In this document: positions 23,073 through 50,687 of the stretch, piece by piece | Layout: the number at the start of each line of letters is the position of its first letter | Numbering within the stretch: the stretch's first letter is position 1 | Assembly (NCBI RefSeq): GCF_900496995.4 | Contig: NC_044030.1 | Location: forward strand, 1,116,001-1,180,000 | Direction: 5' to 3' | Source of the DNA: Aquila chrysaetos chrysaetos | Lineage: Eukaryota > Chordata > Aves > Accipitriformes > Accipitridae | DNA: 64,000 nt | Made by a program: the position numbers and the translations under genes | Notes under the pieces: model-generated | Databases searched by the model: none | What the model saw: the letters and a program-made list of their open reading frames with translations, nothing else | Told to the model about the DNA's origin: nothing

Positions 23073-26000
23073 CCCCCGTCCAGCCGTTTTGGGGAAGAAG
23101 GCGGGGGGTGACGTTCTGCCGCAGGTCCAGGGGGCACAGGCAGAGCACGGGGGCTGCGGGACCGAGGTCATCTTGTGAATGGCAGTTACAGAGAACTAAG
23201 ATAACGAGATAGGTGTATATTAAAAAGACAAAACCCCAAAGAGTTCACGCTTTGCTTTTGATTTGACTTTTCCGTGGAAGCTGGGGGCAGGAGGGGGCAC
23301 TGCAATATGCGGACCGAGCGGTTTCCTTTGCCTGCTTCTCGTGCAAAGAGGCGGAGGCTGACGGTGCCCGAGCAGGGCCCTGCCCCGGGGAAGAGGCGGC
23401 TGCAGGCTCCCCGGGAGCGCAGGTTCTTCCAGGCAACAGGGCTCTGCCGCCCACCCTCCGCTGCAGCCGCATCCCACAGCATCCCGTTCTCCAGCGCTCG
23501 CACCAGCCCGTAGCCACCTTCCCCTCTGCCGAGAGGACTCAGAGCAGCCGTCCTGACCGGGTAACCGCTAATACCCGCTACCGACACGTATGAAGAGCGA
23601 CGCGAGAGGCAAGATGGGCAACGAGAGCTGTGAGAGCCCCGCGGCATCCCCGAGGTCCCCGCGTGCTTTTCCCTTGGTCAGCCCTGCCAGGCTGGCCCGA
23701 CAGCGCCCCGACCGCACGAGGGGGTGGCAGAAGGCCTGCCAAACCCTGCTGGAGACACAGGAACGTCCCGGTTATTTCCCGAGTCTGGACAATCGTCACC
23801 CTAGGTTTCTGGGAAAATAATTTTTCAAAAGTCTGGTTGGAATTATAGGAAGAGAGCGAGCCTGGGAACACGGCTGTGTCCACGCCGCCTGCATGTAAAC
23901 TGGCAGCAATACTACAATCCCAGCTAAAAGGAATGTTCTCCCTGAGACACACAAGTGTTGACTCCTGCCGTACCACTGGGATGTCCAAATAGCGTTAAGT
24001 TTTCCTGCCAACTGCTTATCAGAGGAACCGGGGGGGGGGCAAAGCGCAGAGCCTGGCTGGCTTTCTAAATGCTTCACTTCACTGGGCAAGAGTTCTCAGG
24101 CGCTTGATCCCCATCTACTGCCAATCACAGCCAGCCAGGTCACACTGCAAATCCTGGGAAGCACAACCTTTTCTTCCAAAGATGAAATGACTCAGCATAG
24201 CAAGAGGAGTGGCATCTTCTCCTAAGCTCGTGAACCAGTGCTGATCACTGTGCACCACCCGTAAATAATTCCTACGGATACGCAGCCTGTCCGTCCCGGT
24301 AAGCCCCGTTTCCAACCGGCATCCCGAGCATCGTCTCCCCTGCGGTGCAAAGGGAACATGAAGGGAAACGAGCGCGCAACTGTGGCAGCGTGGCTGGGTT
24401 TTCGACGGGTTATTCACTGAACCCTCGTCAACTGCCACAAATAGCTTTCAGCTCTGCACGTGGCTGTGTCACTGGAAGTTGATGAGTTTGGTGGCATTTC
24501 CAAGAAAACATTTCCTCCGGGGTCCTTCTCCACCATTTTTGCCCAGCTCCGGACTATGACTCTCCTTTTGCTGGGGAGAAAAGAGGAGAAAACAGTTCTT
24601 TACTTTTATCAGCAGTCCTGTGCCTTCCCTCGGGCAGAAAGGGCTTAGGAAGGTGAACTCTCCGCTCAGATTTTCCAAGGTATTAGGGCCTTGCTTTGCT
24701 CAGCGGTGCGAGATGGAGCCACTCGGGCCCATTTTGGGGAGTGACGCGACATCTGGACCGGAGTCACGCCAGGTCGGCACCGCAGGACCTGCCTTGACGA
24801 GGCACCTCGCGGGCCCTGCAACCTGCCGTTACGTTGTCACTGGCACAGTCACCAAACCTCCCTTTTCTGTTCCTCTTCCGTGGCTGTCTGCGTGGAAATA
24901 AGCGTGACTGTCCCTCTGCTTGTTTTGGGGGACTAGCACGGCTTGCGATGGGCTTCAGGAACGAATGGGCAGTGCGCCCGTATGCACGCTTTCCAAGTCA
25001 GCATTGCTCAAAGTTCAACACTTGACGTAGAGAGAGCATTACCAGCGAGACGCAGCCTCATCTCTAAGGAAGTCCCATGCAGAGCAAACAACCTCCCTGA
25101 AATATTCAACCCTTCTTTCAAGAAATACCTTTTTTTTTTTTTTTTTCCTGAGTAAGGGTAAATCAAGTGTGCAATCCAGGTTCTGATTACTTGCCCTCAT
25201 TGTTATTGACAGCCTGTAAGGCCCTGTTTATTTTTACTCACCGTTTTCTCTGCATGGGGTAAGACTCTGGCGGCTAACCCTCCCATTTGGCTTGCAAACT
25301 TCCAAAATATCACCCATCTCATTGAAACCAGCATCCAAGGAAGTTAAAGATTAAGCACGCGTGTGAGCACACACGTGTGGGGAGGTTCTTACGCAACCCG
25401 ATAGAAATATTTAGACATCAGGTTTCCAGCGTTAGCTTCATGTCTCTAAATTTAGCATGCAAATACACCATTACGATGTTCCATAGCTGCAGAAAACTTG
25501 CACAGACTTTGTCTACAAATGATTGGCAAAAAGGCTTCCCTCGCTCAGGAGGAGACGTTCATTCAAGCTGCATCTCTAGCTACTTCACTCTGTTTCTGGC
25601 GATTGTGATCATTCCTCCTACCAGTCTCTGCGCTTCAGCTGACGCACAGCCCCCCTGAAAGGCAGTCCTTCAGACGGCAGAAGTACAGGAGTCGCGACTT
25701 TACTATCCTTTGGGGAAAAACAGTATCAAATGAATGGTCTGATGAAATTGCTGGGGCTGAAATCAGCCATGGAAAAGAAGGAATTTGAAAAGCCGCTTGC
25801 AGAGTTGTTTTGCGCAGTGAGATGTTGGGGCTACCAAGGATGCTTTTTGAAACAGTCCTGCAGGGATGACCATGTTCACCAGGACAGGGGGATGCAGATT
25901 CAGTCCTCTCCCTGAAATCCGCGTCCTCCTGGCTCTTAGGAGAGTGTTTTGACCTTGTCTTAGAGGGAGCGTTTTGGCTGCCGGGGTGGTTCTTCCCTAA

Positions 26001-26300
26001 GGAATCCGATAACGTTATGCACACTTTTAAGCTTGGGTAGGATCGAGACCCGCACGCCTCTATGCCGAATACTATCAATGTTTTTACACACATTTTTGCA
26101 CAGTTAGCACTACACCTCTGCTTCCCTTTTTCCCCGCGCTGATGATGCTTTTAACCCGTTCTCATAGCAGTGGTTTCCCCCAGAGGAAGAATACCTTCCC
26201 ATTTTGGCAAGAGGTGTAGCGGACCCGGTGAACCCCTAAAAGTAACGTCGGTCGCCCTGGTAGGATCTCCCGCAAGGCTGGTTCCTTCACGGCGGTAACA
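23073..26300. other. Outer part of left arm, no gene recognised
   Basis: The stretch has mixed composition with a G10 run near 24,030 and a T-rich tract at about 25,131-25,147. A near-palindromic CACGCGTGTG/CACACGTGTG element lies at about 25,357-25,380. The same elements recur in mirror position in the right arm. Open frames conserved between the arms are short and carry no recognisable domain; conservation here only reflects arm identity. Confidence 0.5.
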
Positions 26301-26329
26301 CCCACAAGAAGTAACTACCGTAGAACTGG

Positions 26330-26960
26330 GGTATGGCTGGAGAGCTGAGGGATGAGCCTCGCACCGCCCCGTCGATTACAGACCCTGGAAATACACCCCG
26401 ACCGACTCAATGCTCGTGACGGAACGAGAGCGCCGGGACAGCAGTCACCAAACGCCAGCTCGGGAGGACTGCTTACCCCCACGGCGTGGCCGGGAGCATT
26501 TGGCACCAAGAGCCACAACTTCTTCTCGGTCACGGCGCGCGCGGGGAAGCCCACCCTCGCGGACCCGCGCCACGCACTCGGCGTCCCCGCCACCGCCTCG
26601 CGCGGGGGGAACCCTCCTGCACCCGGGGTTTCTCCGCTGCGCCTGCGGGCTCTGGATGTGACTACCCGGGGAGCAGCGTCCCGAGCCTCTTCCCCTCGTC
26701 CGCTAGTAGCCCCGCACCGCTCTCCTCCTCCACCCACCCCTCGCCGCCGCTGCCCCGCACTCATCGCAGCGGGCAGGTGTCTGCAGACTCTTTGTCCAGG
26801 GCTGGCTTTAACCCTGGCGACGCCTGTCCTGGCACCGACCGCTCTTGTACGGCCAGCTACGAGTAAAGCCTTCCCGCGGCTCTCAGCCGAGAGCGAGCTG
26901 CCGGCCTGGCATCTGGAAGCACAGCCTGCAATTTGAAAGCGCGTGGGCACCACGGGCCGG
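26330..26960. promoter_or_regulatory. CpG island in outer left arm
   Basis: Dense CpG with runs such as CGGCGCGCGCGGGG near 26,534-26,547 and many GC-box-like motifs, about 3 kb upstream of the GLRX promoter. A 378-codon minus-strand frame (26,315-27,451) crosses it. In the right arm an 18-bp in-frame insertion lengthens that frame, and its composition (R, G, A, P-rich) is what GC-rich DNA gives by chance. I read it as an unassigned promoter or island rather than a gene. Confidence 0.45.
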
Positions 26961-29900
26961 GAAGAGCGAGCTTCTCGCCGCTGGATCGTAATTCTGTTTC
27001 TTGTCTCAGGGCAGGCACAGCAGCATTTATAGGTGGATGCGAGCAGAGGCTTAGAGCTCCACTGAACTCCGCGCCGAGAGCCGACGCTACAGACCACGAC
27101 GTTTTGCTTATCGAGATTTAGCAGCATCCCTCTCGTTGTTCGTTTCGTTTTCAGCAGATACCGTTGAGCGTCCAGCCAGGATCCACGTGCCTTTATTACG
27201 TCTGACAGTGAAGCGAACAACGCAACAGGAAGAAATTCAGTGTTGGACCCAGGCAAGAACGAACCAGCCAATATAAGTAAGTGAGTGGTGCGTCCATCAT
27301 CTCCCGCTCCCACCCTGCTGCCTCGCCTTCTCCACCCCACGGCCCCCCCGGCACAAAAGGGCTTTTGGGCGGCAGCCGCCAATCCGCCTCCACCGGGGAC
27401 GCAGAAGGCGGGCTGTGCCCCCAAAGGCACGGGGAGCGATGGGCATCGCAAACCCTCTGCGTAGCCCAGCTGGGCTTTTAGCTTTTGCTGGCTTTCCTTT
27501 TAGGATATTTTAAAGCGTGAAAACACCAGCAGCTGGCTTTTCTTCTTCGGGAAGAGAAACGCTTGTACCCCAAATGGGACAACGTGCGGGAAATACTGCC
27601 TCAGTGTTCTTATCGCTGCGGGCAGGATGCCTCGGTTAGCTTCAGGCACTGCGCTTGCCCCGGGCCAGTCACCCTTCAAGCCCGTGAAGTCGATGCGTGC
27701 AGACGTCAAGGGCACGCGTAGGTAGTGCCTGACCTTTGCTGCAGTTTCAAGGTGGGCAGCGGGGTACTTCAGCCAGGTGACACCTATTCCCAGGGCTAAC
27801 GCGCACCGCCTAAAACGGGCTAGCAGAGAAGATACTCCGGGAAAAGCATCTGGTCTCCAGACTCTTCTGCTTTCCTGGAAAGAAGAGAATGAAAAGTAAT
27901 ACCGAAAGTGGAAAGTGGGAGAAGCTACGCTGCCAGGGACTTTCTGTGGTGTAGCAAGCAGCTGGCCGGTGCCTGGCGAGCGGCTGTGGTATGGAGGTGC
28001 CCCAAGAGCTGCCGAAACCCCGCTGCCTACACTCTCCTTTCTGAGGGCGGCAAAGCAGCGGGGCGAGCTCAAAATGCCTATTTTTCTGTGCGCAGCGGAG
28101 CAGGTTTCCTTCTCCCGTGCTGACGCTGCAGAAAACTGCATTAGGGAAGCCCTGTTTGGGGTAGGGGCAGAGGTCTTGCACGCGCCTGTCACGCGCAACG
28201 CCGATGGACTGGAGAAAAGCTGGCGTGGGCCCTGGCGCTGGTTTTCCCCTTCCAGACCCACGAAAATAAGAAGCTGAACTTCTTTATTCTCCTCCTTCTG
28301 GATTAAGCCTCGTTACTGTAAATAGGCAGGGTGCGAGCGGGCTGCTTACATTTGGCGAGCGGCCCAAGATCCTCGCGGGATTGCTCGCCTGCGTAGACCG
28401 GTCCTGGGCTCCCCAGTACGAGGGAGACGTGGACAGACTGGGGCGAGGCCAGCAAGGGGCCGTGCAGATGGTGAAGGGATGGGAGCATCTGTCTACGCGG
28501 GGAGGCTGAGAGAGCCGGGGCTGCCCGGCCTGGGGAAGAGGATGCTCGGGGGGGTCTTGCCCATGGGCATAAATACCTGATGGAGGAATGGAGGCGACGG
28601 GGCCGGGCTCTTCCCAGTGGTGCCCAGTGCCAGCACCAGCAGCAGCGGGCACAAACGGCAGCGCAGGAGGCTCCGTCTAAACATAAGGAAAACATTCTCT
28701 CTGTTTCGGTTGCGGAGGCCCCATCCTTGGAGACCTTCGAGCCCTGAGGGGACCCGGCCCTGAGCAGGGGCTTGGGCCGGGTGATGTCCGGAGGTCTCTG
28801 TCGTCCCGTGCAAGTTAAACGGGTGGAAAACGCTGGGGACTCCCGGGCAATAAAGCACCTTAGATCAAAAGCAAGCGGAGCAGGGCTGAGCGCTTTGACA
28901 AAAGCTGAACTAAGTATTAGACTGAGTCTGCCCAGCAGCGGTCTGATACCTTGCGTGCCGTCGTTTGCCACCCCTGTAAGAAAGCAGCTTTCCGTTGGCA
29001 AGTGGCTGGCATGAGGCGGGCTCTGCCCGGAGTGGGGATGCTGGAGACGGCCACCGTCCCGCCGAGCCTCTCGCTTGCGGTTGCAGCGTCGCTGCCACGG
29101 CTCGACATCTGAAGTTCGGGCACGATTCGTCCCTCCCGGGCTGGCTACCCAACTGCGTCTTGTACGACTTTAGACCTCTGAGGGATTGCAGCCTTAAGGT
29201 TTTTCCCTCCGCCAAGCGCACAAAAGCGTGCTGAATTGTGTCATACCGTGCGTGCGTTGAATCCTTTTGATTCCACTGATAAGTCCCCTAAATAGATTCT
29301 CAGCGTAGGTGCCCTCAAGTGACAGTTTTGGACTTTCTTTCAGTGCTGGGCCGGGTTCTCTGAACGCTTTCGGTCCTGAGGGCCTGTCGGGGCTAAAACA
29401 CAGACCTTCTGGGAACCGAGGCAAGGCTGAGAAGCCGTTCAGGCACGTTGGGAAACGGTCGGCAGGGAGTGCCACCCCCTGTGGAAGGCTTGCAGGTTGA
29501 AGGACGTGCAGCCCAAACGGGCCGGGCTTGGGGATCTTCTTGTCACTTCTGGGGTGGGAAGCCAGCGTGGCGAAAGGACGGACGTCAGTTAGCTTCCCTG
29601 CGGGCTTCGGGATGCCCGCACCGTGCCCCCAGGGCGGTGTCAGCATCCCGAACGGCGAGGTGAGGGGCAGGACGGGCATAACCCGACGTGCCTCAGGGGA
29701 GAGAGGCGGCAGCGGGAGCTCAGCCTCGGCCGGCGCACCGGTTCGCGAGCAGCTCCCGCGAACCTTGTACCACAGCGCGGGCACCGAAGCGACGCCCGAC
29801 AGCTACCCGTCTTCCCGCTTTCATCCCGCAGAGTAGTACAAACAAACTAGTTTGGCAACTTGGATTTCCTGTAAAAGCAGGCAGAAAGTAAAAGTATCGC

Positions 29901-29970
29901 TGCCTTAAAACCCACGGTCCGGAGAAGAGCTTACGTCCTCCTGGGGAGGAGTTTCCAGGGAGGAAGGCAC
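26961..29970. other. Left arm between CpG island and GLRX promoter
   Basis: No gene recognised. A TATA-like CATAAATACCT at about 28,569-28,579 matches 11 bases around the GLRX TATA-like box, and an AATAAA occurs near 28,850. Neither is tied to a credible exon. Long frames on both strands are present in both arms but show no domain. Confidence 0.4.
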
Positions 29971-29980
29971 CGGCCAGCTC

Positions 29981-29988
29981 ATAAATAC
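29981..29988 (+). promoter_or_regulatory. GLRX: GLRX copy 1 TATA-like box
   Basis: ATAAATAC lies 92 bases upstream of the GLRX start codon in GC-rich surroundings. A start site about 30 bases downstream (near 30,010) would give a 5' UTR of about 70 bases containing the repeated TCCTGCTCTCC motif. It is identical in the other arm, so both copies should share regulation. The exact start site is inferred. Confidence 0.55.
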
Positions 29989-30079
29989 CTCGGGCTGAGA
30001 TTGCTGCTGTCCCGCCTGCCTGTGAACTCGCTGGTGAAGGGCAGCGCTCCTGCTCTCCTGCTCTCCTTGAAACAGCAGC

Positions 30080-33000
30080 ATGGCCGATAAGTTTCTGGAG
30101 AGCAAAATCAAGGACGGCAAGGTAACCCTGTTCGTAAAGGCAGGCTGCCCTTACAGCAGGAATGCCCTGGAGATGCTCAAGCAATACAACTTTGCGCCCG
30201 GACGCCTGCAAGTGTTTGACATCAACGAATCCCGGGACGCCCGGGATTACTTCCAAGCAACAGCGCAGAGCCCGGTAAGTTCTCGCAGAGGTATTTCGGC
30301 GGCCGCGGGCCCTTGCTTTGTGCCAGAATCCGGCCAGCTGCCGCAGGGGCTGAAGCGAGGTCTCCTTCCCCGCGACTCTCTGTGCCGGCTCACAGGGAGA
30401 AGCCGCACCCCTTTCCCACTTTGCAAAAGCTCCGTCTGTCGGTCCCTCTGCTCCTCCTGTCGCTGCGGCCACCGCGGGGATCCGTGCCGCCCGCTCCCCG
30501 CCGCGGGGACCGGCTGGGCGCAGATGTTCCCGCGCTGCCGGCCGCTGCCGGGAGCCGCGGCACCTCCCGGGACAGTCGCGCCTCCTCCGGCCCCCGCCGC
30601 TGCTGCCGGAGCACGCGGGAGCGTGGAAAACGCCTGGCGTTAAGGCTCGGCGCGTGACCCTGCTGGCTAGCGAAGGGCTGGCGGAGGGGGGTACCGTCAC
30701 GCTTCCAGGCGCCCGGCGGGAAGAGCTCCTTCAGAGCTCTCCCCACGGCGCTGCCCGAGGCAGCGCAGGCTTGCGGAGGCGCGAGGACGCGGAGCCGCCG
30801 GGGTGCCTGAGTCGGGACGCTTGCCCTCCCCTCTGACGGTTAGCAGAAAGCGCGTCGCGAGTTGCGCCCGTGCAGCCGGCCGCGAAGCAGAGGCCGCGCC
30901 CGCAGAAAATTTGGCGGCGGCCTCTTTCGAAGCTCGCTTCAACGGTCCGGTCCGCCTCGGGGAGCGGCGTTTCGTGCTCGACTTGCAGGAACGGACTTCC
31001 CCAGAAGCGCCGCGGCTCAGGGCCCCCAGCTCGTGCCTCCGCCGCCGAGCGGGCGCCGGGACCCTTTTTCCCCTCCCCGACCCACCGAAACGCTACCGAC
31101 GTCCGACGGCCTCCACGAAGCAAAGCGGAGGGCGGACGCCGGGGACGCGCCGTCCCCGCCGCCGGGCTCTCGGGGGCATCTTCCCGCGCCGGCCGCGCGT
31201 CCGGACCCCCGGCCGGCCTCGGCCCGGGGAAAACCCAGACCCGCGCTCGTGGTCTTGGGACGGCGGGGCTGCCCGCCGGCCCCGGCGGAACGCGCCCCCG
31301 CCTCGGTCCCGCGCGGGTGACGGCGAGGCGCCGGAGCCCCGCCGCGCAGCCCGGCCGAGGCGGGCGGTGTGCGGGGGGGACGCGGGCGAGAGCACGGCGG
31401 CCTTTGCTCCCCCGGGGCAGAGCTCGGCTGCTCGGCCGCGGCAGAGCGGTTTTGGGTCGCAGGGACCTCGAGGGGCCGCCGCGGCCGAGCCCCCCGCGAC
31501 GGGCAGGGACGCCTTCCCCCAGGCCGGCCTGCTCGGAGCCCCGTCCGGCCCGGCCCCGCCGGCCGCCCCTCGCGTCGCGCGTGGCGCGGGCCCGCGCCGG
31601 GCGTCTTGCTCGGCGTCTCGGCGGGAGCGTCCGACGCCCGGGCGTCCCGGCGCTCGGCCCCCGGGCTGCCGGAGCACCCGCGACCCTCCTCCCGCGCCGG
31701 CCGCCGCCCGACGCGCCTCTCGTGTCTCCCCGCGGCCCCAGCCCTCCGTCGCGCCGGAGCCCTTCGGAAAGCCTCGTCAGGCCGGCGCCGTCGGCCAGAG
31801 GCCCCCGCCCGCCGTGCCGCCTCCGAGCTCTGCCGTATGGCGCCCTGTGCCGGCGGGCGTCCCTGCGCACCCCGGGAAGCCTCCCAGCCCCGCGGCCCAG
31901 CGTCCCCGGAGCCTCGGCGGCAGCGTCGGGCAGGGCCGGGAACCGCCGGAGGCGTCCCGAAAGCGGAAGCGTTGTCCCGGCGGCGGGGGAATTTGGGCGG
32001 GAGCGAGAGGGCGGCCGGCTTGGCCAGCGAGGCGCCGAAGCGAGGCGCCGACAGCAGAAACCGCTTTCCCAGCGCGACGGGGATCGATGGGACCGGCCGC
32101 AAGCGACAGCGGGAGCGGAGCTCCGGGCTGCCGACGGACGGCGTGAGGTCTTCCAGCGGGAGAAGCCAGCCGCTGGGAGCAGAAGGCCATCTCCCGCCCG
32201 CAGGGGCTGGGCGAGGGGGATGGCTGGCGTCGGGGGGACACGGGGGCGGCGAGTGCCGCCGGGGACGGGCTGCCCGAAGGCGGCTTGCCCGAGCTGCCGC
32301 TGGGGCCTGGGGGGCTGACGGTGGCGGCGGAGCTTCGTTCGGCCAGCTGGCCGCGCGGGAGGAAGAACAGAGCTCCCTGCGCTCTCTCCAGAGCTCTCCC
32401 CGTGCCCGGTCCCGCCGGGAACACCCGACCGCCCTCGCCCGGCCCAGCCCCGGCTGGGAGCGACCGGCGCAGGGCTGGAGCGACCGGAGCAGGGCTGGGA
32501 GCGACCGGAGCAGGGGGGGCTCGCGTGGCGCCGCGTCCGCCTGGACGGGGACGCGAGGGGCCGGGAGCAGGGCTGGCGGAGCGCGAGGACGCCGGGGCGA
32601 AGAGGGGAAGGGAAAGGGGTGCGGAGGATAAACCGAAAGGCTGCCGGTGGCCAGCGCGTCGCCCGCGCCGCCGTCGCCAGCCCGCCCGCGGGGCAGGGCG
32701 CACGTCGCGCCGGCGAAGGGAGATCCTGAGGGGCACGGCTCCCCGGGGAGGGCAGCGGGGAGCTCGGGGCGGGTGGGCGTCCCTCCGCAGGGTCGGGGTG
32801 TCCTCCTCCTCCCAAAGCTGGACCTGCCCGTGGCGGCACGGAGCAGCGGACGGGGCTTTCCGAGCTGCCGCCTTCCCACGACCCGCTCTCGCCCTTCGTG
32901 TTTTACGCCTCGTCCCGCCCGTGTCCTTCGCCTTGAGTCCTTGGCCCGCTACCAGCTCAGTAATTTCACTTCTGCCCGTGTTTTCGTTTCTTTTGGTCCT

Positions 33001-33870
33001 CCCCGGCTTCAGCTGGGTCGCTTTTTCCCAGCGCGACGCCGATTTCACTTCCCTCTGCGGAGAGCGGCACACGCGTGCCTTGAGGAAGTCTCCGCTGCTG
33101 AGGTTCGGTACCCGTTCCTGGTTTTCGGGAGAGCGTTGCTTTTCTCTCCTTTTTTCTCTTCCCTTTTGCAAATCTGGCCCCGCACCGCCCGCCGCTCGCC
33201 TCGCAGCCGGGCGGCCGTCGTGAGGTGGGCCGGACAAGGGGCCAGCGCGGGCAGGGCGACAGCAGGCGGTCGGGGCTGCGCAGCAGCCCGAGGGTACGCC
33301 GAGAAGAAGGGCTTGTGCCAGAAGCGCGAGCTTGCCGTGCCAAGTGACTTTGACGGTACGGGCGGCCGGCCGGCCGCACATCCCACCCGGCAGCTCCACG
33401 GGCCTGGCCAGCCCTCGGAGGGACGGCGGGACTCCTCGGCGCCTGGAGAACCCGCCGCGGGCACGCGCGCGCTCCGTAGGCGCCGCCGGGCTCGGAGCTG
33501 CTCGCTCGCTGCCCTGGGACCGCGTGCCTGGAGCGCGGTTCGGTCCTCCCGCAGCCTCTGTGAAACGCGGAGGATTCCCCCGCCCCTTCTCTTCTGGCAG
33601 CAGACCCTCAGGCAGGCGGGCCGCTGGGGGCGAGAAGAGGGGGGTTTTGTAAACGACGGCCGCCTCGGTGCGCAGCCCGCTTCCCGGGCCGATCCTCTGC
33701 CCGCTCTGTGCCTTCGGCAGCCCGGCTCCCCTGGTTAACGCGGGGTGTTGTTTTGTGCCCAGGTGCCTCGCGTGTTCATCGGGAGACACTGCCTCGGAGG
33801 GTTACCCGAGCTGGAGAACGTGCGCTGCAGGCTCCCCACAATGCTGCAGCGGATCGGTGCCCTGCGGTAG
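30080..33870 (+). CDS. GLRX: Glutaredoxin-1 (GLRX), palindrome copy 1, two coding exons
   Basis: Coding exons are 30,080-30,274 (65 codons, phase 0, donor GTAAGT) and 33,763-33,870 (35 codons plus TAG), giving 100 residues, the normal length of a cytosolic class I glutaredoxin that reduces protein-glutathione mixed disulfides with GSH. The start MADKFLESKI is preceded by GCAGC in a short 5' UTR. The fold signature is clear: KVTLFVKAGCPYSRNA around the active site (Cys23), then VPRVFIG with the cis-proline, a GGLPEL loop and the C-terminal LQRIGALR. Three functional positions are unusual: the second active-site cysteine is Ser (CPYS), the Thr of the TVP glutathione-binding motif is Pro, and the GG..D loop has Glu. 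The nucleophilic cysteine remains, so monothiol deglutathionylation is possible. Both exons are open with good splice sites, so this is an intact gene. Its mirror copy encodes the same protein. Position between ELL2 and RHOBTB3 matches the known gene order. Confidence 0.93.
30275..33762 (+). promoter_or_regulatory. GLRX: GLRX copy 1 intron 1: very large CpG island
   Basis: The 3.5-kb intron is extremely GC- and CpG-rich from about 30,400 to 33,500, with few stop codons in any frame. Frames of up to 702 codons on the minus strand and 482 on the plus strand result. They are not credible genes: single-base indels between the arms (for example near 31,450 and 31,095) break and re-join them differently in the two copies, and their products are R/P/A/G-rich without a domain. 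The island probably extends the GLRX promoter into the gene. Confidence 0.7.
32453..32514. repeat. 21-bp VNTR, short allele (3 units)
   Basis: Three units of GGCTGGGAGCGACCGGAGCAG (one a base short) lie in GLRX intron 1. The same array in the right arm has eight units, the largest single difference I see between the arms. Confidence 0.85.
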
Positions 33871-38701: not shown

Positions 38702-39741
38702 CCGCTTGGAGCGAGCGTATTTTATTGAGCCGGATCAGATCACGCTCCGGAGCTCTCTCCAGAGCTCCAGAAAGGATGCGGAGGCGTTCACATGTCGAAG
38801 CACCGATCGACGGAAGGGAGAGAAGCTGCGTTTGCCAAAGAGGTGCATTTGACCGCGCCGAAGGCAGTCGCCCGCAATTTGCTCCTGGAAGCGCGTGCGT
38901 CGGCGTGAGGAGGTCGCAGCTCCTGGTCGTCTTTCTCCTGAAAGCAGAAACAGCAGACGTAAAGGGCAGAGAGATCACTGCTGTTGGGAGCTACCTGATT
39001 GAGACAATACCGTGACAGAACAGGCCGTGGCGACTTTTTAGGCGGTGCTTTTACACTTTCACACGCGCGGACATACTCGCGTTGCACCCCTCTTCCCTGC
39101 TCTGCCCACCTCGCGCAGGCCGTTGCCCTGCGTGAAAGGTGCTGCAGGCCCGCGGGGCACCTGCGCAAACCTCATCGTCACCTCGTATTCTGCCTGGCTG
39201 GTTCCCAGCTGCAGCTTTTCTCCACGCCTGCGTGCAAGCAGCTCAGAGGGTCCTGCTGAGGCTCACCACGCTCCCCCCCGAGCGGAAAAGTACGTCGGGC
39301 CCCCCCTCCACCCCGTGCCCGGACGGTTTTGAAAGCCAATTATAAAATTGGAAGAGCCCGTCCTCTGTACGCAGCCAGGCTGAAACGCCCGAGACTTTGT
39401 CCGAGAGCCACAGGCTCCATCGTCTACGTGCGGAAAGAAAGCAAAAGCAGCCAGCCCGACGAGCTGAACCGTTTGGGCTAGATCCCGGGCAAAGGCTAGC
39501 AGCTGAACCCCGCGTTGGCGGAGATTTTGGTGACGTCTCGTTCAAACCCGCTGGGAGAGAGCCACAAGGTCTGTGCCGCAGCTGGGGACCCCAGAAGCGA
39601 AGTCACGCTTCGCTCTTGCGTAGTGGCACGCACCACCGCTCCGTCGGGTCACCTTTCGGTATTGGAAAGGCTCAGATTTGCCTGCCCCGGCGGAAAAGCA
39701 TTGCCGCCGGCCAGAGAGCCTGCCCAGGACTTACCCTTCGG
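38702..39741 (-). other. GLRX: GLRX copy 2 3' UTR with internal intron
   Basis: Mirror of the copy 1 arrangement: coding exon 2 continues to 39,735, the donor (CTTAC on the plus strand at 39,730-39,734) follows, and the final non-coding exon starts at 38,937 after its acceptor. Splice signals are unchanged from copy 1. Confidence 0.7.
38721..38726 (-). terminator. GLRX: GLRX copy 2 polyadenylation signal
   Basis: TTTATT on the plus strand reads AATAAA on the minus strand and is the exact mirror of the copy 1 signal. The complement of the GT-rich downstream element also follows. Confidence 0.75.
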
Positions 39742-42700
39742 CTACCGCAGGGCACCGATCCGCTGCAGCATTGTGGGGAGCCTGCAGCGCACGTTCTCCA
39801 GCTCGGGTAACCCTCCGAGGCAGTGTCTCCCGATGAACACGCGAGGCACCTGGGCACAAAACAACACCCCGCGTTAACCAGGGGAGCCGGGCTGCCGAAG
39901 GCACAGAGCGGGCAGAGGATCGGCCCGGGAAGCGGGCTGCGCACCGAGGCGGCCGTCGTTTACAAAACCCCCTCTTCTCGCCCCCAGCGGCCCGCCTGCC
40001 TGAGGGTCTGCTGCCAGAAGAGAAGGGGCGGGGGAATCCTCCGCGTTTCACAGAGGCTGCGGGAGGACCGAACCGCGCTCCAGGCACGCGGTCCCAGGGC
40101 AGCGAGCGAGCAGCTCCGAGCCCGGCGGCGCCTACGGAGCGCGCGCGTGCCCGCGGCGGGTTCTCCAGGCGCCGAGGAGTCCCGCCGTCCCTCCGAGGGC
40201 TGGCCAGGCCCGTGGAGCTGCCGGGTGGGATGTGCGGCCGGCCGCCCGCCGCCCGCCGCCCGCCCGTACCGTCAAAGTCACTTGGCACGGCAAGCTCGCG
40301 CTTCTGGCACAAGCCCTTCTTCTCGGCGTACCCTCGGGCTGCTGCGCAGCCCCGACCGCCTGCTGTCGCCCTGCCCGCGCTGGCCCCTTGTCCGGCCCAC
40401 CTCACGACGGCCGCCCGGCTGCGAGGCGAGCGGCGGGCGGTGCGGGGCCAGATTTGCAAAAGGGAAGAGAAAAAAGGAGAGAAAAGCAACGCTCTCCCGA
40501 AAACCAGGAACGGGTACCGAACCTCAGCAGCGGAGACTTCCTCAAGGCACGCGTGTGCCGCTCTCCGCAGAGGGAAGTGAAATCGGCGTCGCGCTGGGAA
40601 AAAGCGACCCAGCTGAAGCCGGGGAGGACCAAAAGAAACGAAAACACGGGCAGAAGTGAAATTACTGAGCTGGTAGCGGGCCAAGGACTCAAGGCGAAGG
40701 ACACGGGCGGGACGAGGCGTAAAACACGAAGGGCGAGAGCGGGTCGTGGGAAGGCGGCAGCTCGGAAAGCCCCGTCCGCTGCTCCGTGCCGCCACGGGCA
40801 GGTCCAGCTTTGGGAGGAGGAGGACACCCCGACCCTGCGGAGGGACGCCCACCCGCCCCGAGCTCCCCGCTGCCCTCCCCGGGGAGCCGTGCCCCTCAGG
40901 ATCTCCCTTCGCCGGCGCGACGTGCGCCCTGCCCCGCGGGCGGGCTGGCGACGGCGGCGCGGGCGACGCGCTGGCCACCGGCAGCCTTTCGGTTTATCCT
41001 CCGCACCCCTTTCCCTTCCCCTCTTCGCCCCGGCGTCCTCGCGCTCCGCCAGCCCTGCTCCCGGCCCCTCGCGTCCCCGTCCGGGCGGACGCGGCGCCAC
41101 GCGAGCCACCCCTGCTCCGGTCGCTCCCAGCACTGCTCCGGTCGCTCCCAGCCCTGCTCCGGTCGCTCCCAGCCCTGCGCCGTTCACTCCCAGCCCTGCT
41201 CCGGTCGCTCCCAGCCCTGCGCCGTTCACTCCCAGCCCTGCTCCGGTCGCTCCCAGCCCTGCGCCAGTCGCTCCCAGCCGGGGCTGGGCCGGGCGAGGGC
41301 GGTCGGGTGTTCCCGGTGGGACCGGGCACGGGGAGAGCTCTGGAGAGAGCGCAGGGAGCTCTGTTCTTCCTCCCGCGCGGCCAGCTGGCCGAACGAAGCT
41401 CCGCCGCCACCGTCAGCCCCCCAGGCCCCAGCGGCAGCTCGGGCAAGCCGCCTTCGGGCAGCCCGTCCCCGGCGGCACTCGCCGCCCCCGTGTCCCCCCG
41501 ACGCCAGCCATCCCCCTCGCCCAGCCCCTGCGGGCGGGAGATGGCCTTCTGCTCCCAGCGGCTGGCTTCTCCCGCTGGAAGACCTCACGCCGTCCGTCGG
41601 CAGCCCGGAGCTCCGCTCCCGCTGTCGCTTGCGGCCGGTCCCATCGATCCCCGTCGCGCTGGGAAAGCGGTTTCTGCTGTCGGCGCCTCGCTTCGGCGCC
41701 TCGCTGGCCAAGCCGGCCGCCCTCTCGCTCCCGCCCAAATTCCCCCGCCGCCGGGACAACGCTTCCGCTTTCGGGACGCCTCCGGCGGTTCCCGGCCCTG
41801 CCCGACGCTGCCGCCGAGGCTCCGGGGACGCTGGGCCGCGGGGCTGGGAGGCTTCCCGGGGTGCGCAGGGACGCCCGCCGGCACAGGGCGCCATACGGCA
41901 GAGCTCGGAGGCGGCACGGCGGGCGGGGGCCTCTGGCCGACGGCGCCGGCCTGACGAGGCTTTCCGAAGGGCTCCGGCGCGACGGAGGGCTGGGGCCGCG
42001 GGGAGACACGAGAGGCGCGTCGGGCGGCGGCCGGCGCGGGAGGAGGGTCGCGGGTGCTCCGGCAGCCCGGGGGCCGAGCGCCGGGACGCCCGGGGCGTCG
42101 GACGCTCCCGCCGAGACGCCGAGCAAGACGCCCGGCGCGGGCCCGCGCCACGCGCGACGCGAGGGGCGGCCGGCGGGGCCGGGCCGGACGGGGCTCCGAG
42201 CAGGCCGGCCTGGGGGAAGGCGTCCCTGCCCGTCGCGGGGGGCTCGGCCGCGGCGGCCCCTCGAGGTCCCTGCGACCCAAACCGCTCTGCCGCGGCCGAG
42301 CAGCCGAGCTCTGCCCCGGGGGAGCAAAGGCCGCCGTGCTCTCGCCCGCGTCCCCCCCGCACACCGCCCGCCTCGGCCGGGCTGCGCGGCGGGGCTCCGG
42401 CGCCTCGCCGTCACCCGCGCGGGACCGAGGCGGGGGCGCGTTCCGCCGGGGCCGGCGGGCAGCCCCGCCGTCCCAAGACCACGAGCGCGGGTCTGGGTTT
42501 TCCCCGGGCCGAGGCCGGCCGGGGGTCCGGACGCGCGGCCGGCGCGGGAAGATGCCCCCGAGAGCCCGGCGGCGGGGACGGCGCGTCCCCGGCGTCCGCC
42601 CTCCGCTTTGCTTCGTGGAGGCCGTCGGACGTCGGGTAGCGTTTCGGTGGGTCGGGGAGGGGAAAAAGGGTCCCGGCGCCCGCTCGGCGGCGGAGGCACG

Positions 42701-43662
42701 AGCTGGGGGCCCTGAGCCGCGGCGCTTCTGGGGAAGTCCGTTCCTGCAAGTCGAGCACGAAACGCCGCTCCCCGAGGCGGACCGGACCGTTGAAGCGAGC
42801 TTCGAAAGAGGCCGCCGCCAAATTTTCTGCGGGCGCGGCCTCTGCTTCGCGGCCGGCTGCACGGGCGCAACTCGCGACGCGCTTTCTGCTAACCGTCAGA
42901 GGGGAGGGCAAGCGTCCCGACTCAGGCACCCCGGCGGCTCCGCGTCCTCGCGCCTCCGCAAGCCTGCGCTGCCTCGGGCAGCGCCGTGGGGAGAGCTCTG
43001 AAGGAGCTCTTCCCGCCGGGCGCCTGGAAGCGTGACGGTACCCCCCTCCGCCAGCCCTTCGCTAGCCAGCAGGGTCACGCGCCGAGCCTTAACGCCAGGC
43101 GTTTTCCACGCTCCCGCGTGCTCCGGCAGCAGCGGCGGGGGGCCGGAGGAGGCGCGACTGTCCCGGGAGGTGCCGCGGCTCCCGGCAGCGGCCGGCAGCG
43201 CGGGAACATCTGCGCCCAGCCGGTCCCCGCGGCGGGGAGCGGGCGGCACGGATCCCCGCGGTGGCCGCAGCGACAGGAGGAGCAGAGGGACCGACAGACG
43301 GAGCTTTTGCAAAGTGGGAAAGGGGTGCGGCTTCTCCCTGTGAGCCGGCACAGAGAGTCGCGGGGAAGGAGACCTCGCTTCAGCCCCTGCGGCAGCTGGC
43401 CGGATTCTGGGGCGGCTGGCACAAAGCAAGGGCCCGCGGCCGCCGAAATACCTCTGCGAGAACTTACCGGGCTCTGCGCTGTTGCTTGGAAGTAATCCCG
43501 GGCGTCCCGGGATTCGTTGATGTCAAACACTTGCAGGCGTCCGGGCGCAAAGTTGTATTGCTTGAGCATCTCCAGGGCATTCCTGCTGTAAGGGCAGCCT
43601 GCCTTTACGAACAGGGTTACCTTGCCGTCCTTGATTTTGCTCTCCAGAAACTTATCGGCCAT
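39742..43662 (-). CDS. GLRX: Glutaredoxin-1 (GLRX), palindrome copy 2, two coding exons
   Basis: On the minus strand the coding exons are 43,662-43,468 (65 codons) and 39,849-39,742 (35 codons plus TAG). I see no coding difference from copy 1: the same 100 residues with CPYS, PVP and GGLPE, the same splice sites and the same promoter box. The first intron is longer (3,618 bp) because of the expanded VNTR and small indels. The gene is transcribed toward the palindrome centre and therefore converges on copy 1, with about 3.8 kb between the two polyadenylation signals. Identical coding sequence, while the introns differ at several places, fits either recent duplication or gene conversion plus purifying selection. 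Function as in copy 1: a cytosolic thiol-disulfide oxidoreductase, probably restricted to monothiol chemistry. Confidence 0.93.
39850..43467 (-). promoter_or_regulatory. GLRX: GLRX copy 2 intron 1: very large CpG island
   Basis: Mirror of the copy 1 intron and equally CpG-rich. It contains the longest open frame of the window (40,232-42,715 plus strand, 827 codons). That frame is not reproduced intact in the other arm, where small indels split it, and its product is R/P/A/S-rich without a domain. I therefore annotate the region as a CpG island and not as a gene. Confidence 0.7.
41112..41279. repeat. 21-bp VNTR, long allele (8 units)
   Basis: Eight 21-bp units of the form CTGCTCCGGTCGCTCCCAGCC are present. 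Units 4 and 6 share the variant CTGCGCCGTTCACTCCCAGCC, alternating with the standard unit, which suggests expansion by duplicating a two-unit block. The left arm has only three units. Confidence 0.9.
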
Positions 43663-43753
43663 GCTGCTGTTTCAAGGAGAGCAGGAGAGCAGGAGCGCTG
43701 CCCTTCACCAGCGAGTTCACAGGCAGGCGGGACAGCAGCAATCTCAGCCCGAG

Positions 43754-43761
43754 GTATTTAT
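43754..43761 (-). promoter_or_regulatory. GLRX: GLRX copy 2 TATA-like box
   Basis: GTATTTAT on the plus strand reads ATAAATAC on the minus strand, 92 bases upstream of the copy 2 start codon, exactly as in copy 1. Confidence 0.55.
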
Positions 43762-43769
43762 GAGCTGGC

Positions 43770-46700
43770 CGGTGCCTTCCTCCCTGGAAACTCCTCCCCA
43801 GGAGGACGTAAGCTCTTCTCCGGACCGTGGGTTTTAAGGCAGCGATACTTTTACTTTCTGCCTGCTTTTACAGGAAATCCAAGTTGCCAAACTAGTTTGT
43901 TTGTACTACTCTGCGGGATGAAAGCGGGAAGACGGGTAGCTGTCGGGCGTCGCTTCGGTGCCCGCGCTGTGGTACAAGGTTCGCGGGAGCTGCTCGCGAA
44001 CCGGTGCGCCGGCCGAGGCTGAGCTCCCGCTGCCGCCTCTCTCCCCTGAGGCACGTCGGGTTATGCCCGTCCTGCCCCTCACCTCGCCGTTCGGGATGCT
44101 GAAACCGCCCTGGGGGCACGGTGCGGGCATCCCGAAGCCCGCAGGGAAGCTAACTGACGTCCGTGCTTTCGCCACGCTGGCTTCCCACCCCAGAAGTGAC
44201 AAGAAGATCCCCAAGCCCGGCCCGTTTGGGCTGCACGTCCTTCAACCTGCAAGCCTTCCACAGGGGGTGGCACTCCCTGCCGACCGTTTCCCAACGTGCC
44301 TGAACGGCTTCTCAGCCTTGCCTCGGTTCCCAGAAGGTCTGTGTTTTAGCCCCGACAGGCCCTCAGGACCGAAAGCGTTCAGAGAACCCGGCCCAGCACT
44401 GAAAGAAAGTCCAAAACTGTCACTTGAGGGCACCTACGCTGAGAATCTATTTAGGGGACTTATCAGTGGAATCAAAAGGATTCAACGCACGCACGGTATG
44501 ACACAATTCAGCACGCTTTTGTGCGCTTGGCGGAGGGAAAAACCTTAAGGCTGCAATCCCTCAGAGGTCTAAAGTCGTACAAGACGCAGTTGGGTAGCCA
44601 GCCCGGGAGGGACGAATCGTGCCCGAACTTCAGATGTCGAGCCGTGGCAGCGACGCTGCAACCGCAAGCGAGAGGCTCGGCGGGACGGTGGCCGTCTCCA
44701 GCATCCCCACTCCGGGCAGAGCCCGCCTCATGCCAGCCACTCGCCAACGGAAAGCTGCTTTCTTACAGGGGTGGCAAACGACGGCACGCAAGGTATCAGA
44801 CCGCTGCTGGGCAGACTCAGTCTAATACTTAGTTCAGCTTTTGTCAAAGCGCTCAGCCCTGCTCCGCTTGCTTTTGATCTAAGGTGCTTTATTGCCCGGG
44901 AGTCCCCAGCGTTTTCCACCCGTTTAACTTGCACGGGACGACAGAGACCTCCGGACATCACCCGGCCCAAGCCCCTGCTCAGGGCCGGGTCCCCTCAGGG
45001 CTCGAAGGTCTCCAAGGATGGGGCCTCCGCAACCGAAACAGAGAGAATGTTTTCCTTATGTTTAGACGGAGCCTCCTGCGCTGCCGTTTGTGCCCGCTGC
45101 TGCTGGTGCTGGCACTGGGCACCACTGGGAAGAGCCCGGCCCCGTCGTCTCCATTCCTCCATCAGGTATTTATGCCCATGGGCAAGACCCCCCCGAGCAT
45201 CCTCTTCCCCAGGCCGGGCAGCCCCGGCTCTCTCAGCCTCCCCGCGTAGACAGATGCTCCCATCCCTTCACCATCTGCACGGCCCCTTGCTGGCCTCGCC
45301 CCAGTCTGTCCACGTCTCCCTCGTACTGGGGAGCCCAGGACCGGTCTACGCAGGCGAGCAATCCCGCGAGGATCTTGGGCCGCTCGCCAAATGTAAGCAG
45401 CCCGCTCGCATCCTGCCTATTTACAGTAACGAGGCTTAATCCAGAAGGAGGAGAATAAAGAAGTTCAGCTTCTTATTTTCGTGGGTCTGGAAGGGGAAAA
45501 CCAGCGCCAGGGCCCACGCTATCTTTTCTGCAGTCCATCGGCGTTGCGCGTGACAGGCGCGTGCAAGACCTCTGCCCCTACCCCAAACAGGGCTTCCCTA
45601 ATGCAGTTTTCTGCAGCGTCAGCACGGGAGAAGGAAACCTGCTCCGCTGCGCACAGAAAAATAGGCATTTTGAGCTCGCCCCGCTGCTTTGCCGCCCTCA
45701 GAAAGGAGAGTGTAGGCAGCGGGGTTTCGGCAGCTCTTGGGGCACCTCCATACCACAGCCGCTCGCCAGGCACCGGCCAGCTGCTTGCTACACCACAGAA
45801 AGTCCCTGGCAGCGTAGCTTCTCCCACTTTCCACTTTCGGTATTACTTTTCATTCTCTTCTTTCCAGGAAAGCAGAAGAGTCTGGAGACCAGATGCTTTT
45901 CCCGGAGTATCTTCTCTGCTAGCCCGTTTTAGGCGGTGCGCGTTAGCCCTGGGAATAGGTGTCACCTGGCTGAAGTACCCCGTTGCCCACCTTGAAACTG
46001 CAGCAAAGGTCAGGCACTACCTACGCGTGCCCTTGACGTCTGCACGCATCGACTTCACGGGCTTGAAGGGTGACTGGCCCGGGGCAAGCGCAGTGCCTGA
46101 AGCTAACCGAGGCATCCTGCCCGCAGCGATAAGAACACTGAGGCAGTATTTCCCGCACGTTGTCCCATTTGGGGTACAAGCGTTTCTCTTCCCGAAGAAG
46201 AAAAGCCAGCTGCTGGTGTTTTCACGCTTTAAAATATCCTAAAAGGAAAGCCAGCAAAAGCTAAAAGCCCAGCTGGGCTACGCAGAGGGTTTGCGATGCC
46301 CATCGCTCCCCGTGCCTTTGGGGGCACAGCCCGCCTTCTGCGTCCCCGGTGGAGGCGGATTGGCGGCTGCCGCCCAAAAGCCCTTTTGTGCCGGGGGGGC
46401 CGTGGGGTGGAGAAGGCGAGGCAGCAGGGTGGGAGCGGGAGATGATGGACGCACCACTCACTTACTTATATTGGCTGGTTCGTTCTTGCCTGGGTCCAAC
46501 ACTGAATTTCTTCCTGTTGCGTTGTTCGCTTCACTGTCAGACGTAATAAAGGCACGTGGATCCTGGCTGGACGCTCAACGGTATCTGCTGAAAACGAAAC
46601 GAACAACGAGAGGGATGCTGCTAAATCTCGATAAGCAAAACGTCGTGGTCTGTAGCGTCGGCTCTCGGCGCGGAGTTCAGTGGAGCTCTAAGCCTCTGCT

Positions 46701-46800
46701 CGCATCCACCTATAAATGCTGCCGTGCCTGCCCTGAGACAAGAAACAGAATTACGATCCAGCGGCGAGAAGCTCGCTCTTCGCGGCCCGTGGTGCCCACG
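43770..46800. other. Right arm upstream of GLRX copy 2, no gene recognised
   Basis: Mirror of 26,961-29,970. Nothing beyond what is described there. A cluster of differences from the left arm lies near 45,519-45,535, where a G is replaced by C and TAT stands for AGC within about 15 bases. Confidence 0.4.
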
Positions 46801-47430
46801 CGCTTTCAAATTGCAGGCTGTGCTTCCAGATGCCAGGCCGGCAGCTCGCTCTCGGCTGAGAGCCGCGGGAAGGCTTTACTCGTAGCTGGCCGTACAAGAG
46901 CGGTCGGTGCCAGGACAGGCGTCGCCAGGGTTAAAGCCAGCCCTGGACAAAGAGTCTGCAGACACCTGCCCGCTGCGATGAGTGCGGGGCAGCGGCGGCG
47001 AGGGGTGGGCGGAGGAGGAGAGCGGTGCGGGGCTACTAGCGGACGAGGGGAAGAGGCTCGGGACGCTGCTCCCCGGGTAGTCACATCCAGAGCCCGCAGG
47101 CGCAGCGGAGAAACCCCGGGTGCAGGAGGGTTCCCCCCGCGCGAGGCGGTGGCGGGGACGCCGAGTGCGTGGCGCGGGTCCGCGAGGGTGGGCTTCCCCG
47201 CGCGCGCCGTGGGACGGCCGCGCGCGGTGACCGAGAAGAAGTTGTGGCTCTTGGTGCCAAACGCTCCCGGCCACGCCGTGGGGGTAAGCAGTCCTCCCGA
47301 GCTGGCGTTTGGTGACTGCTGTCCCGGCGCTCTCGTTCCGTCACGAGCATTGAGTCGGTCGGGGTGTATTTCCAGGGTCTGTAATCGACGGGGCGGTGCG
47401 AGGCTCATCCCTCAGCTCTCCAGCCATACC
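46800..47430. promoter_or_regulatory. CpG island in outer right arm
   Basis: Mirror of the island at 26,330-26,960. It carries an 18-bp insertion near 47,212-47,229 (GGACGGCCGCGCGCGGTG) that is itself part of a CG-rich inverted-repeat-like run. Confidence 0.45.
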
Positions 47431-50400
47431 CCAGTTCTACGGTAGTTACTTCTTGTGGGTGTTACCGCCGTGAAGGAACCAGCCTTGCGGGAGATCCTAC
47501 CAGGGCGACCGACGTTACTTTTAGGGGTTCACCGGGTCCGCTACACCTCTTGCCAAAATGGGAAGGTATTCTTCCTCTGGGGGAAACCACTGCTATGAGA
47601 ACGGGTTAAAAGCATCATCAGCGCGGGGAAAAAGGGAAGCAGAGGTGTAGTGCTAACTGTGCAAAAATGTGTGTAAAAACATTGTTAGTATTCGGCATAG
47701 AGGCGTGCGGGTCTCGATCCTACCCAAGCTTAAAAGTGTGCATAACGTTATCGGATTCCTTAGGGAAGAACCACCCCGGCAGCCAAAACGCTCCCTCTAA
47801 GACAAGGTCAAAACACTCTCCTAAAAGCCAGGAGGACGCGGATTTCAGGGAGAGGACTGAATCTGCATCCCCCTGTCCTGGTGAACACGGTCATCCCTGC
47901 AGGACTGTTTCAAAAAGCATCCTTGGTAGCCCCAACATCTCACTGCGCAAAACAACTCTGCAAGCGGCTTTTCAAATTCCTTCTTTTCCATGGCTGATTT
48001 CAGCCCCAGCAATTTCATCAGACCATTCATTTGATACTGTTTTTCCCCAAAGGATAGTAAAGTCGCGACTCCTGTACTTCTGCCGTCTGAAGGACTGCCT
48101 TTCAGGGGGCTGTGCGTCAGCTGAAGCGCAGAGACTGGTAGGAGGAATGATCACAATCGCCAGAAACAGAGTGAAGTAGCTAGAGATGCAGCTTGAATGA
48201 ACGTCTCCTCCTGAGCGAGGGAAGCCTTTTTGCCAATCATTTGTAGACAAAGTCTGTGCAAGTTTTCTGCAGCTATGGAACATCGTAATGGTGTATTTGC
48301 ATGCTAAATTTAGAGACATGAAGCTAACGCTGGAAACCTGATGTCTAAATATTTCTATCGGGTTGCGTAAGAACCTCCCCACACGTGTGTGCTCACACGC
48401 GTGCTTAATCTTTAACTTCCTTGGATGCTGGTTTCAATGAGACGGGTGATATTTTGGAAGTTTGCAAGCCAAATGGGAGGGTTAGCCGCCAGAGTCTTAC
48501 CCCATGCAGAGAAAACGGTGAGTAAAAATAAACAGGGCCTTACAGGCTGTCAATAACAATGAGGGCAAGTAGTCAGAACCTGGATTGCACACTTGATTTA
48601 CCCTTACTCAGGAAAAAAAAAAAAAAAGGTATTTCTTGAAAGAAGGGTTGAATATTTCAGGGAGGTTGTTTGCTCTGCATGGGACTTCCTTAGAGATGAG
48701 GCTGCGTCTCGCTGGTAATGCTCTCTCTACGTCAAGTGTTGAACTTTGAGCAATGCTGACTTGGAAAGCGTGCATACGGGCGCACTGCCCATTCGTTCCT
48801 AAAGCCCATCGCAAGCCGTGCTAGTCCCCCAAAACAAGCAGAGGGACAGTCACGCTTATTTCCACGCAGACAGCCACGGAAGAGGAACAGAAAAGGGAGG
48901 TTTGGTGACTGTGCCAGTGACAACGTAATGGCAGGTTGCAGGGCCCGCGAGGTGCCTCGTCAAGGCAGGTCCTGCGGTGCCGACCTGGCGTGACTCCGGT
49001 CCAGATGTCGCGTCACTCCCCAAAATGGGCCCGAGCGGCTCCATCTCGCACCGCTGAGCAAAGCAAGGCCCTAATACCTTGGAAAATCTGAGCGGAGAGT
49101 TCACCTTCCTAAGCCCTTTCTGCCCGAGGGAAGGCACAGGACTGCTGATAAAAGTAAAGAACTGTTTTCTCCTCTTTTCTCCCCAGCAAAAGGAGAGTCA
49201 TAGTCCGGAGCTGGGCAAAAATGGTGGAGAAGGACCCCGGAGGAAATGTTTTCTTGGAAATGCCACCAAACTCATCAACTTCCAGTGACACAGCCACGTG
49301 CAGAGCTGAAAGCTATTTGTGGCAGTTGACGAGGGTTCAGTGAATAACCCGTCGAAAACCCAGCCACGCTGCCACAGTTGCGCACTCGTTTCCCTTCATG
49401 TTCCCTTTGCACCGCAGGGGAGACGATGCTCGGGATGCCGGTTGGAAACGGGGCTTGCCGGGACGGACAGGCTGCGTATCCGTAGGAATTATTTACGGGT
49501 GGTGCACAGTGATCAGCACTGGTTCACGAGCTTAGGAGAAGATGCCACTCCTCTTGCTATGCTGAGTCATTTCATCTTTGGAAGAAAAGGTTGTGCTTCC
49601 CAGGATTTGCAGTGTGACCTGGCTGGCTGTGATTGGCAGTAGATGGGGATCAAGCGCCTGAGAACTCTTGCCCAGTGAAGTGAAGCATTTAGAAAGCCAG
49701 CCAGGCTCTGCGCTTTGCCCCCCCCCCCCCGGTTCCTCTGATAAGCAGTTGGCAGGAAAACTTAACGCTATTTGGACATCCCAGTGGTACGGCAGGAGTC
49801 AACACTTGTGTGTCTCAGGGAGAACATTCCTTTTAGCTGGGATTGTAGTATTGCTGCCAGTTTACATGCAGGCGGCGTGGACACAGCCGTGTTCCCAGGC
49901 TCGCTCTCTTCCTATAATTCCAACCAGACTTTTGAAAAATTATTTTCCCAGAAACCTAGGGTGACGATTGTCCAGACTCGGGAAATAACCGGGACGTTCC
50001 TGTGTCTCCAGCAGGGTTTGGCAGGCCTTCTGCCACCCCCTCGTGCGGTCGGGGCGCTGTCGGGCCAGCCTGGCAGGGCTGACCAAGGGAAAAGCACGCG
50101 GGGACCTCGGGGATGCCGCGGGGCTCTCACAGCATTCGTTGCCCATCTTGCCTCTCGCGTCGCTCTTCATACGTGTCGGTAGCGGGTGTTAGCGGTTACC
50201 CGGTCAGGACGGCTGCTCTGAGTCCTCTCGGCAGAGGGGAAGGTGGCTACGGGCTGGTGCGAGCGCTGGAGAACGGGATGCTGTGGGATGCGGCTGCAGC
50301 GGAGGGTGGGCGGCAGAGCCCTGTTGCCTGGAAGAACCTGCGCTCCCGGGGAGCCTGCAGCCGCCTCTTCCCCGGGGCAGGGCCCTGCTCGGGCACCGTC

Positions 50401-50687
50401 AGCCTCCGCCTCTTTGCACGAGAAGCAGGCAAAGGAAACCGCTCGGTCCGCATATTGCAGTGCCCCCTCCTGCCCCCAGCTTCCACGGAAAAGTCAAATC
50501 AAAACCAAAGCGTGAACTCTTTGGGGTTTTGTCTTTTTAATATACACCTATCTCGTTATCTTAGTTCTCTGTAACTGCCATTCACAAGATGACCTCGGTC
50601 CCGCAGCCCCCGTGCTCTGCCTGTGCCCCCTGGACCTGCGGCAGAACGTCACCCCCCGCCTTCTTCCCCAAAACGGCTGGACGGGGG
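47431..50687. other. Outer part of right arm, no gene recognised
   Basis: Mirror of 23,073-26,300, with the A-rich tract at 48,611-48,627 and a C12 run near 49,719. Homopolymer lengths differ from the left arm, as expected for two real copies. Confidence 0.5.

Follow-up and report, generated by a model that had tools for sequence, protein, structure and literature searches.

A GLRX-bearing palindrome on the presumed Z chromosome of Aquila chrysaetos as part of a probable compound inverted duplication with RHOBTB3 exons

Among human inverted copy number variants, for which a replication-based origin has been proposed, the DUP/INV-NML-DUP variant is tabulated, in the accessible part of the report, with successive copy numbers of 1-2-1-2-1 (PMC10766186). 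The subject here is a locus of the eagle Aquila chrysaetos chrysaetos at which a large palindrome containing the gene GLRX adjoins a second inverted repeat containing exons of RHOBTB3. It lies in a stretch of 64,000 nucleotides (the window), positions 1116001-1180000 of contig NC_044030.1 of assembly GCF_900496995.4 (88,216,475 bases; C37 below), and searches covered the whole genome, which at 1.23 Gb in 144 contigs is of avian size. One study of a palindrome on an avian W chromosome, not a Z, reportedly claims gene conversion in its title, and we know of no link between that palindrome and GLRX. On the duck W, 38 palindromes of 15.2-345.5 kb are described, in the text available, as consisting of nested repeats without robustly expressed genes (PMC7787181), and the accessible part of a paper on the songbird W merely mentions palindromes (PMC7692361). 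The arms of primate X palindromes have a median guanine plus cytosine (GC) content that in human is 46.3%, against 41.2% for their flanks (PMC8981503). No Z palindrome with GLRX was met with in the titles and abstract openings searched, among which subscription literature is poorly covered, so that this is not proof of such a palindrome being undescribed.

The eagle locus is probably a Z-linked compound inverted duplication, similar to the DUP/INV-NML-DUP class, that involves GLRX and RHOBTB3 exons and arose in one recent rearrangement. From left to right its layout is ELL2, block B with GLRX, a 576-bp segment s, an inverted copy of B (B'), 26 bp, an inverted copy of a further block (E'), the 9.9-kb block D with the last exon of RHOBTB3, block E and then the rest of RHOBTB3. 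The palindrome, P1, is made up of B, s and B'; the second inverted repeat, P2, has E' and E as its arms and D as its spacer. P1 is a 27.6-kb inverted repeat, window positions 23073-50687, that duplicates GLRX in mirror image. Self-BLAST pairs 23073-32515 with 50687-41215 (9,477 columns, 99.26%, E=0) and 32452-36517 with 41174-37094 (4,083 columns, 99.19%, E=0); origin of such a mirror by chance is excluded. With arm alignment, this places arm 1 at 23073-36517 on the plus strand (13,445 bp), the spacer at 36518-37093 and arm 2 at 37094-50687 on the minus strand (13,594 bp). An initial annotation, made from the letters of the window, had described a mirror with nearly identical arms of about 13.5 kb, a 576-bp spacer and dispersed substitutions and indels, and self-BLAST reproduced its coordinates exactly. 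The alignment puts the substitutions at 43 in 13,439 ungapped columns (0.32%; 30 transitions and 13 transversions) and the indels at 15. Nine of the latter are of a single base, seven of these being inside runs of at least four of the same base, and the biggest, of 106 bp, is within a 21-bp tandem repeat for which Tandem Repeats Finder (TRF) counts 3.1 copies in the first arm and 8.3 in the second. The palindrome is accordingly present as first described; what did not stand is its treatment as a stand-alone structure, as it belongs to a compound rearrangement that includes RHOBTB3.

P2 extends past the window, and neighbouring sequence (C37:1096001-1116000 and 1180001-1240000) was added to give a stretch of 144 kb. 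Within it, E' (window 50714-56405, minus strand) is repeated in inverse orientation at C37:1182340-1188036 (66340-72036 in window numbering). P2 begins 26 bp beyond the end of P1, and its 5.7-kb arms, separated by a 9.9-kb spacer (D; 56406-64000 and on to C37:1182339), differ at 27 of 5,690 columns (0.47%) and by three indels. The inner 100 bp or so of E' (56301-56405) resemble nearby repeat copies and carry four of the 27 differences; trimmed of this repeat-derived end, P2 has 23 differences in 5,587 columns (0.41%). Three RHOBTB3 exons, encoding the equivalent of human amino acids 427-573, are doubled by P2. The copy in E', at 52025-54537 on the plus strand, is separate from the remainder of the gene and has one synonymous difference from its counterpart. 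The window by itself, with these exons on the plus strand and the last coding exon on the minus strand (62768-62881), suggested that RHOBTB3 had been broken by inversion, a possibility rejected on inspection of the neighbouring sequence. There the minus-strand exons, which start at 94.6 kb and end at 62.8 kb in window numbering, follow the expected order, with the last coding exon in its place, and so E' is an extra copy.

In the genome s is found in one place, an E probe (window 51950-54600) in two and a GLRX probe in two full places, while D is single in the 144-kb stretch, interspersed repeats being the only other matches to it there. With D judged within that stretch, the pattern is 1-2-1-2-1 and the copies are inverted, as in DUP/INV-NML-DUP. 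In 184 kb of sequence, matches to the 26-bp filler between B' and E' (junction 2; 50688-50713), other than the two arm ends, do not exceed 11 bp. At the join of E' to D (junction 3) the final 18 bp of the match between E' and E contain three differences, for which the chance at the background rate is 6e-5 with the stretch picked post hoc. These 18 bp are within sequence common to other nearby repeat copies, and the join therefore probably used repeat homology. Reading junction 1, between s and B', would need its ancestral site. The repeats near the inner end of P2 are putatively CR1, a name supported by a reverse-transcriptase open reading frame (ORF) at 57421-58413 and by a match of octamer type, with two mismatches, at 59029. 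A different element, of 0.7 kb, is present in both orientations as three copies 98-99% alike (73627-74328, 82474-83176 and 114148-114845, window numbering) and is probably a young mobile element.

The ancestral order would have been ELL2, B with GLRX, s, D with the last exon of RHOBTB3, E with its exons for residues 427-573, and the rest of RHOBTB3. One rearrangement would then have joined E and B and placed the two, as an inverted copy, between s and D, to yield B-s-B'-filler-E'-D-E. By the most likely route, replication would have turned back on itself where s ends, run through B in reverse as far as its left edge, switched by way of the 26-bp filler to the right-hand end of E, run through that block in reverse as well, and re-entered D via repeat homology. 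The outcome would be two complete GLRX reading frames replacing one, together with a stranded fragment of RHOBTB3 exons. Beginning beside the inner edge of arm 1, the spacer of P1 contains a perfect 25-nt inverted repeat (36519-36543/36765-36789) that may be connected with the fold-back.

The two copies of GLRX are tail to tail at the spacer of P1. In arm 1, coding exon 1 (30080-30274, plus strand, with a GT donor at its end) and coding exon 2 with the stop codon (33763-33870, plus strand, preceded by an AG acceptor) were located by tblastn and by reading of the sequence. In arm 2 both are on the minus strand, exon 1 at 43468-43662 (tblastn 43662-43486, the 3' end being set by symmetry with arm 1) and exon 2 at 39742-39849 (tblastn 39849-39745, the end again set by symmetry). 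The spliced frame of 100 amino acids is complete, has GT/AG splice sites, and is identical in coding sequence between the arms. It matches the Pfam family Glutaredoxin (4.9e-11) and solved mammalian glutaredoxins, with CPYS in place of CPYC at the active site, so that the first cysteine is retained. Identity of exon 1 to human is only 42% by tblastn, and that of the RHOBTB3 exons is 76-91% in the window and 44-76% for upstream exons outside it, a moderate contrast in conservation between the two genes. The GLRX probe gave 16 matches in the genome, three of them being the two arms (one in two pieces) and 13 weak. The weak ones, of 56-113 bases, 73-84% identical and on several contigs, are all to a GC-rich stretch of intron 1, 31442-31558. 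Long ORFs in the arms were considered as possible mobile elements, a reading rejected as neither the five at 26.3-30.7 kb nor the three long ones at the GC peak had a Pfam match; they seem to reflect a GC content of 60-80% with few stops. Rfam gave no match at its gathering thresholds and no tRNA was found. Just beyond the outer edge of arm 1, at 22695-23006, is a GC-rich tandem repeat (TRF, self-BLAST) of 6.3 copies of 48 bp with a 12-bp substructure.

To the left of P1, C-terminal coding exons of ELL2 are at 1343-2786 on the plus strand, 72% and 76% identical over the two longer exons in tblastn with human ELL2, and more ELL2 exons are left of the window. The ELL2-GLRX-RHOBTB3 block recognized in the initial annotation was confirmed by tblastn in the window and the neighbouring sequence. 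The genome has five DM-domain matches, three of them clustered at C37:58.28-58.38 Mb, which we take to be the DMRT1/3/2 cluster of the avian Z. Matches to the HIT family number at least 11, with eight in an array on C29 (3.38-3.50 Mb), presumably as expected for HINTW, and three on C37, where two adjacent HIT-domain exons are presumably those expected of HINT1. In the array, C29:3381854-3502138, the eight HIT-domain copies have equal scores and two are on the opposite strand; they are likely HINTW. On account of the DM-domain cluster on C37 and the HIT array on C29, C37 is taken as the Z, C29 as the W and the bird as female. Linkage to the W was ruled out by the DMRT-type cluster and HINT1-like exons on C37, the HIT array on C29 and the lack of a close second copy of ELL2, for which a genome probe found one locus and, on C12, a weak match of 150 bases, with none on C29. 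Z linkage, earlier proposed from the chicken, is upheld by the presence of the DM-domain cluster elsewhere on this 88.2-Mb contig and by the Z linkage of ELL2 and GLRX in chicken, as given in the accessible part of its source (PMC1876622). One end of C37 is 1.1 Mb away from the window, and a term search of the main text of a paper on the flycatcher pseudoautosomal region named none of the genes searched for (PMC4272252).

The divergence of P1 (0.32%) and that of P2 (0.47%) are about equal and statistically indistinguishable (p=0.116, Fisher). Against trimmed P2, p=0.34, and p=1.0 if a tract of P1 free of single-nucleotide variants (SNVs) is left out as well. With equal divergence, a recent shared origin is sufficient to explain the likeness of the arms. 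At the flycatcher mutation rate of 2.3e-9 per site per year, and without conversion, the shared origin would date to 0.70-0.89 million years (My) ago. SNVs are enriched at CpG (20 of 43 in P1, 7 of 27 in P2) and transitions predominate, in which they are like real mutations. For the arm-to-arm gene conversion mentioned in the initial annotation the one hint is a single SNV-free tract, which carries five indels; neighbouring P2, with its 9.9-kb spacer, is about equally diverged. Conversion in P1 is unnecessary for the likeness of its arms; it may have begun, which is unproven.

The opposing view is that P1 is an old Z palindrome in which, as in those of the mammalian X and Y chromosomes, conversion keeps the arms alike, and that GC-biased conversion has raised their GC. 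The arms of P1 are 61.8-61.9% GC, their flanks 43.5-44.0% and the spacer 45.1%; primate X palindrome arms are GC-rich too, according to the text available (PMC8981503). The GC content steps sharply from 62% to 41% at the right outer edge, 50687, a feature equally predicted by a new junction. The SNV-free tract, 29639-32414 (2.8 kb), is longer than expected by chance (p=0.0022, 5,000 permutations), a hint of conversion, though it has five indels in it, and over-polishing of GC-rich repeats is a possible alternative cause. Against old conversion, the arms of neighbouring P2 resemble each other about as closely, yet have 44% GC and an observed-to-expected CpG ratio of 0.47-0.48, the ratio being 0.87-0.88 in the P1 arms and 0.27-0.35 in the flanks. 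The GC-rich domain also mismatches the arms, with 66% in the 500 bp outside arm 1 (22573-23072) and 51% in the innermost 500 bp of both arms. Moreover, P1 has a lower rate of transitions per CpG at CpG sites (18/1,120) than P2 (7/128; p=0.01), which suggests that the GLRX domain is unmethylated and island-like. An origin in long-maintained conversion is considered unlikely. Because P2, about equally alike, lacks the GC excess and the edges of the GC domain do not coincide with those of the arms at the left and centre, the GLRX domain most likely had its high GC and light methylation already before copying. GC content does not clearly rise across the region, as the range of 0.37-0.50 in twelve 10-kb blocks flanking the window (1.076-1.260 Mb) matches that of 14 blocks taken at intervals from C37 (0.37-0.50, mean 0.42).

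The same layout would result if two inverted duplications had occurred independently at a fragile site, the later one at the edge of the earlier, as each inverted repeat could form alone, and divergence that is equal within error leaves a common date unproven. By linking B' and E' at their outer edges, the 26-bp junction favours a single insertion as requiring fewer steps, and two separate events appear improbable. A fold-back chimera, or two haplotypes assembled side by side in inverted orientation, would make the locus an artefact. Two of 20 C37 blocks contain strings of N, 66 and 453 bases long, which may be assembly gaps, and if the locus is pseudoautosomal a female would have two haplotypes. 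The window and its flanking blocks contain no N, however, the structure is contiguous in the assembly, and with a W-like array present the Z would be hemizygous unless the locus is pseudoautosomal. Judged from the assembled sequence, the joins seem free of gaps and the arms do not appear to be allelic haplotypes; assembly error is thus unlikely, and the artefact explanation is left with a slender chance. These alternatives overlap, and so their probabilities do not sum to one.

Several considerations weigh against a single compound inverted duplication free of conversion. We infer the single event, the order of its steps, the ancestral adjacency of s and D and the age of about 0.7-0.9 My from the present anatomy. 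Three junctions in one event require several template switches, and the history may have been stepwise. The human class, as its name has it, involves inversion of one duplicated block, whereas in the eagle both are inverted, in one insert. The rate for P1 is nominally below that for P2, the trimming of P2 and the exclusion of the P1 tract were post hoc choices, and the tract hints at some conversion. P2 is also an imperfect control in that, with its long spacer and with arms shorter than those of P1, it may convert less.

Having P1 beside P2 as a control repeat of similar divergence and normal GC allows age, conversion and inherited GC to be separated by comparison of relatives. A complete GLRX reading frame has been doubled on a chromosome that in birds, by the part of the source available, is without chromosome-wide dosage compensation (PMC3463555). 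It would be a long shot that the palindrome is a young, gene-bearing one from compound template switching that provides two GLRX doses in ZW females, with conversion just starting at the GLRX core. If true, this would allow direct tests of how sex-chromosome palindromes are born and of dosage repair, one gene at a time, on the Z.

In comparison with known systems, the eagle locus shares with human DUP/INV-NML-DUP the 1-2-1-2-1 pattern, inverted duplicated material and a single-copy segment between. The human cases, as far as the accessible text describes them, are patient variants, of which one maps to Xq28 and four involve a telomere deletion (PMC10766186), whereas the eagle locus is of kilobase scale, is in the reference Z of a bird and is diverged by about 0.3-0.5%. 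Like palindromes of the mammalian type, P1 has large arms more than 99% alike, a short spacer, arms richer in GC than their flanks, and a protein-coding gene, GLRX, with an intact frame in both arms. With primate X palindromes it has in common a large, near-identical inverted repeat on the sex chromosome that both sexes share, a protein-coding gene and GC-richer arms; the difference is that cross-species conservation and gene conversion are reported for the primate palindromes, in the text available (PMC8981503), while the GC excess of P1 is better explained as inherited. The duck W palindromes are likewise avian and on a sex chromosome but, in contrast to them as described in the accessible part of that paper (PMC7787181), P1 is on the Z and carries an intact-looking gene.
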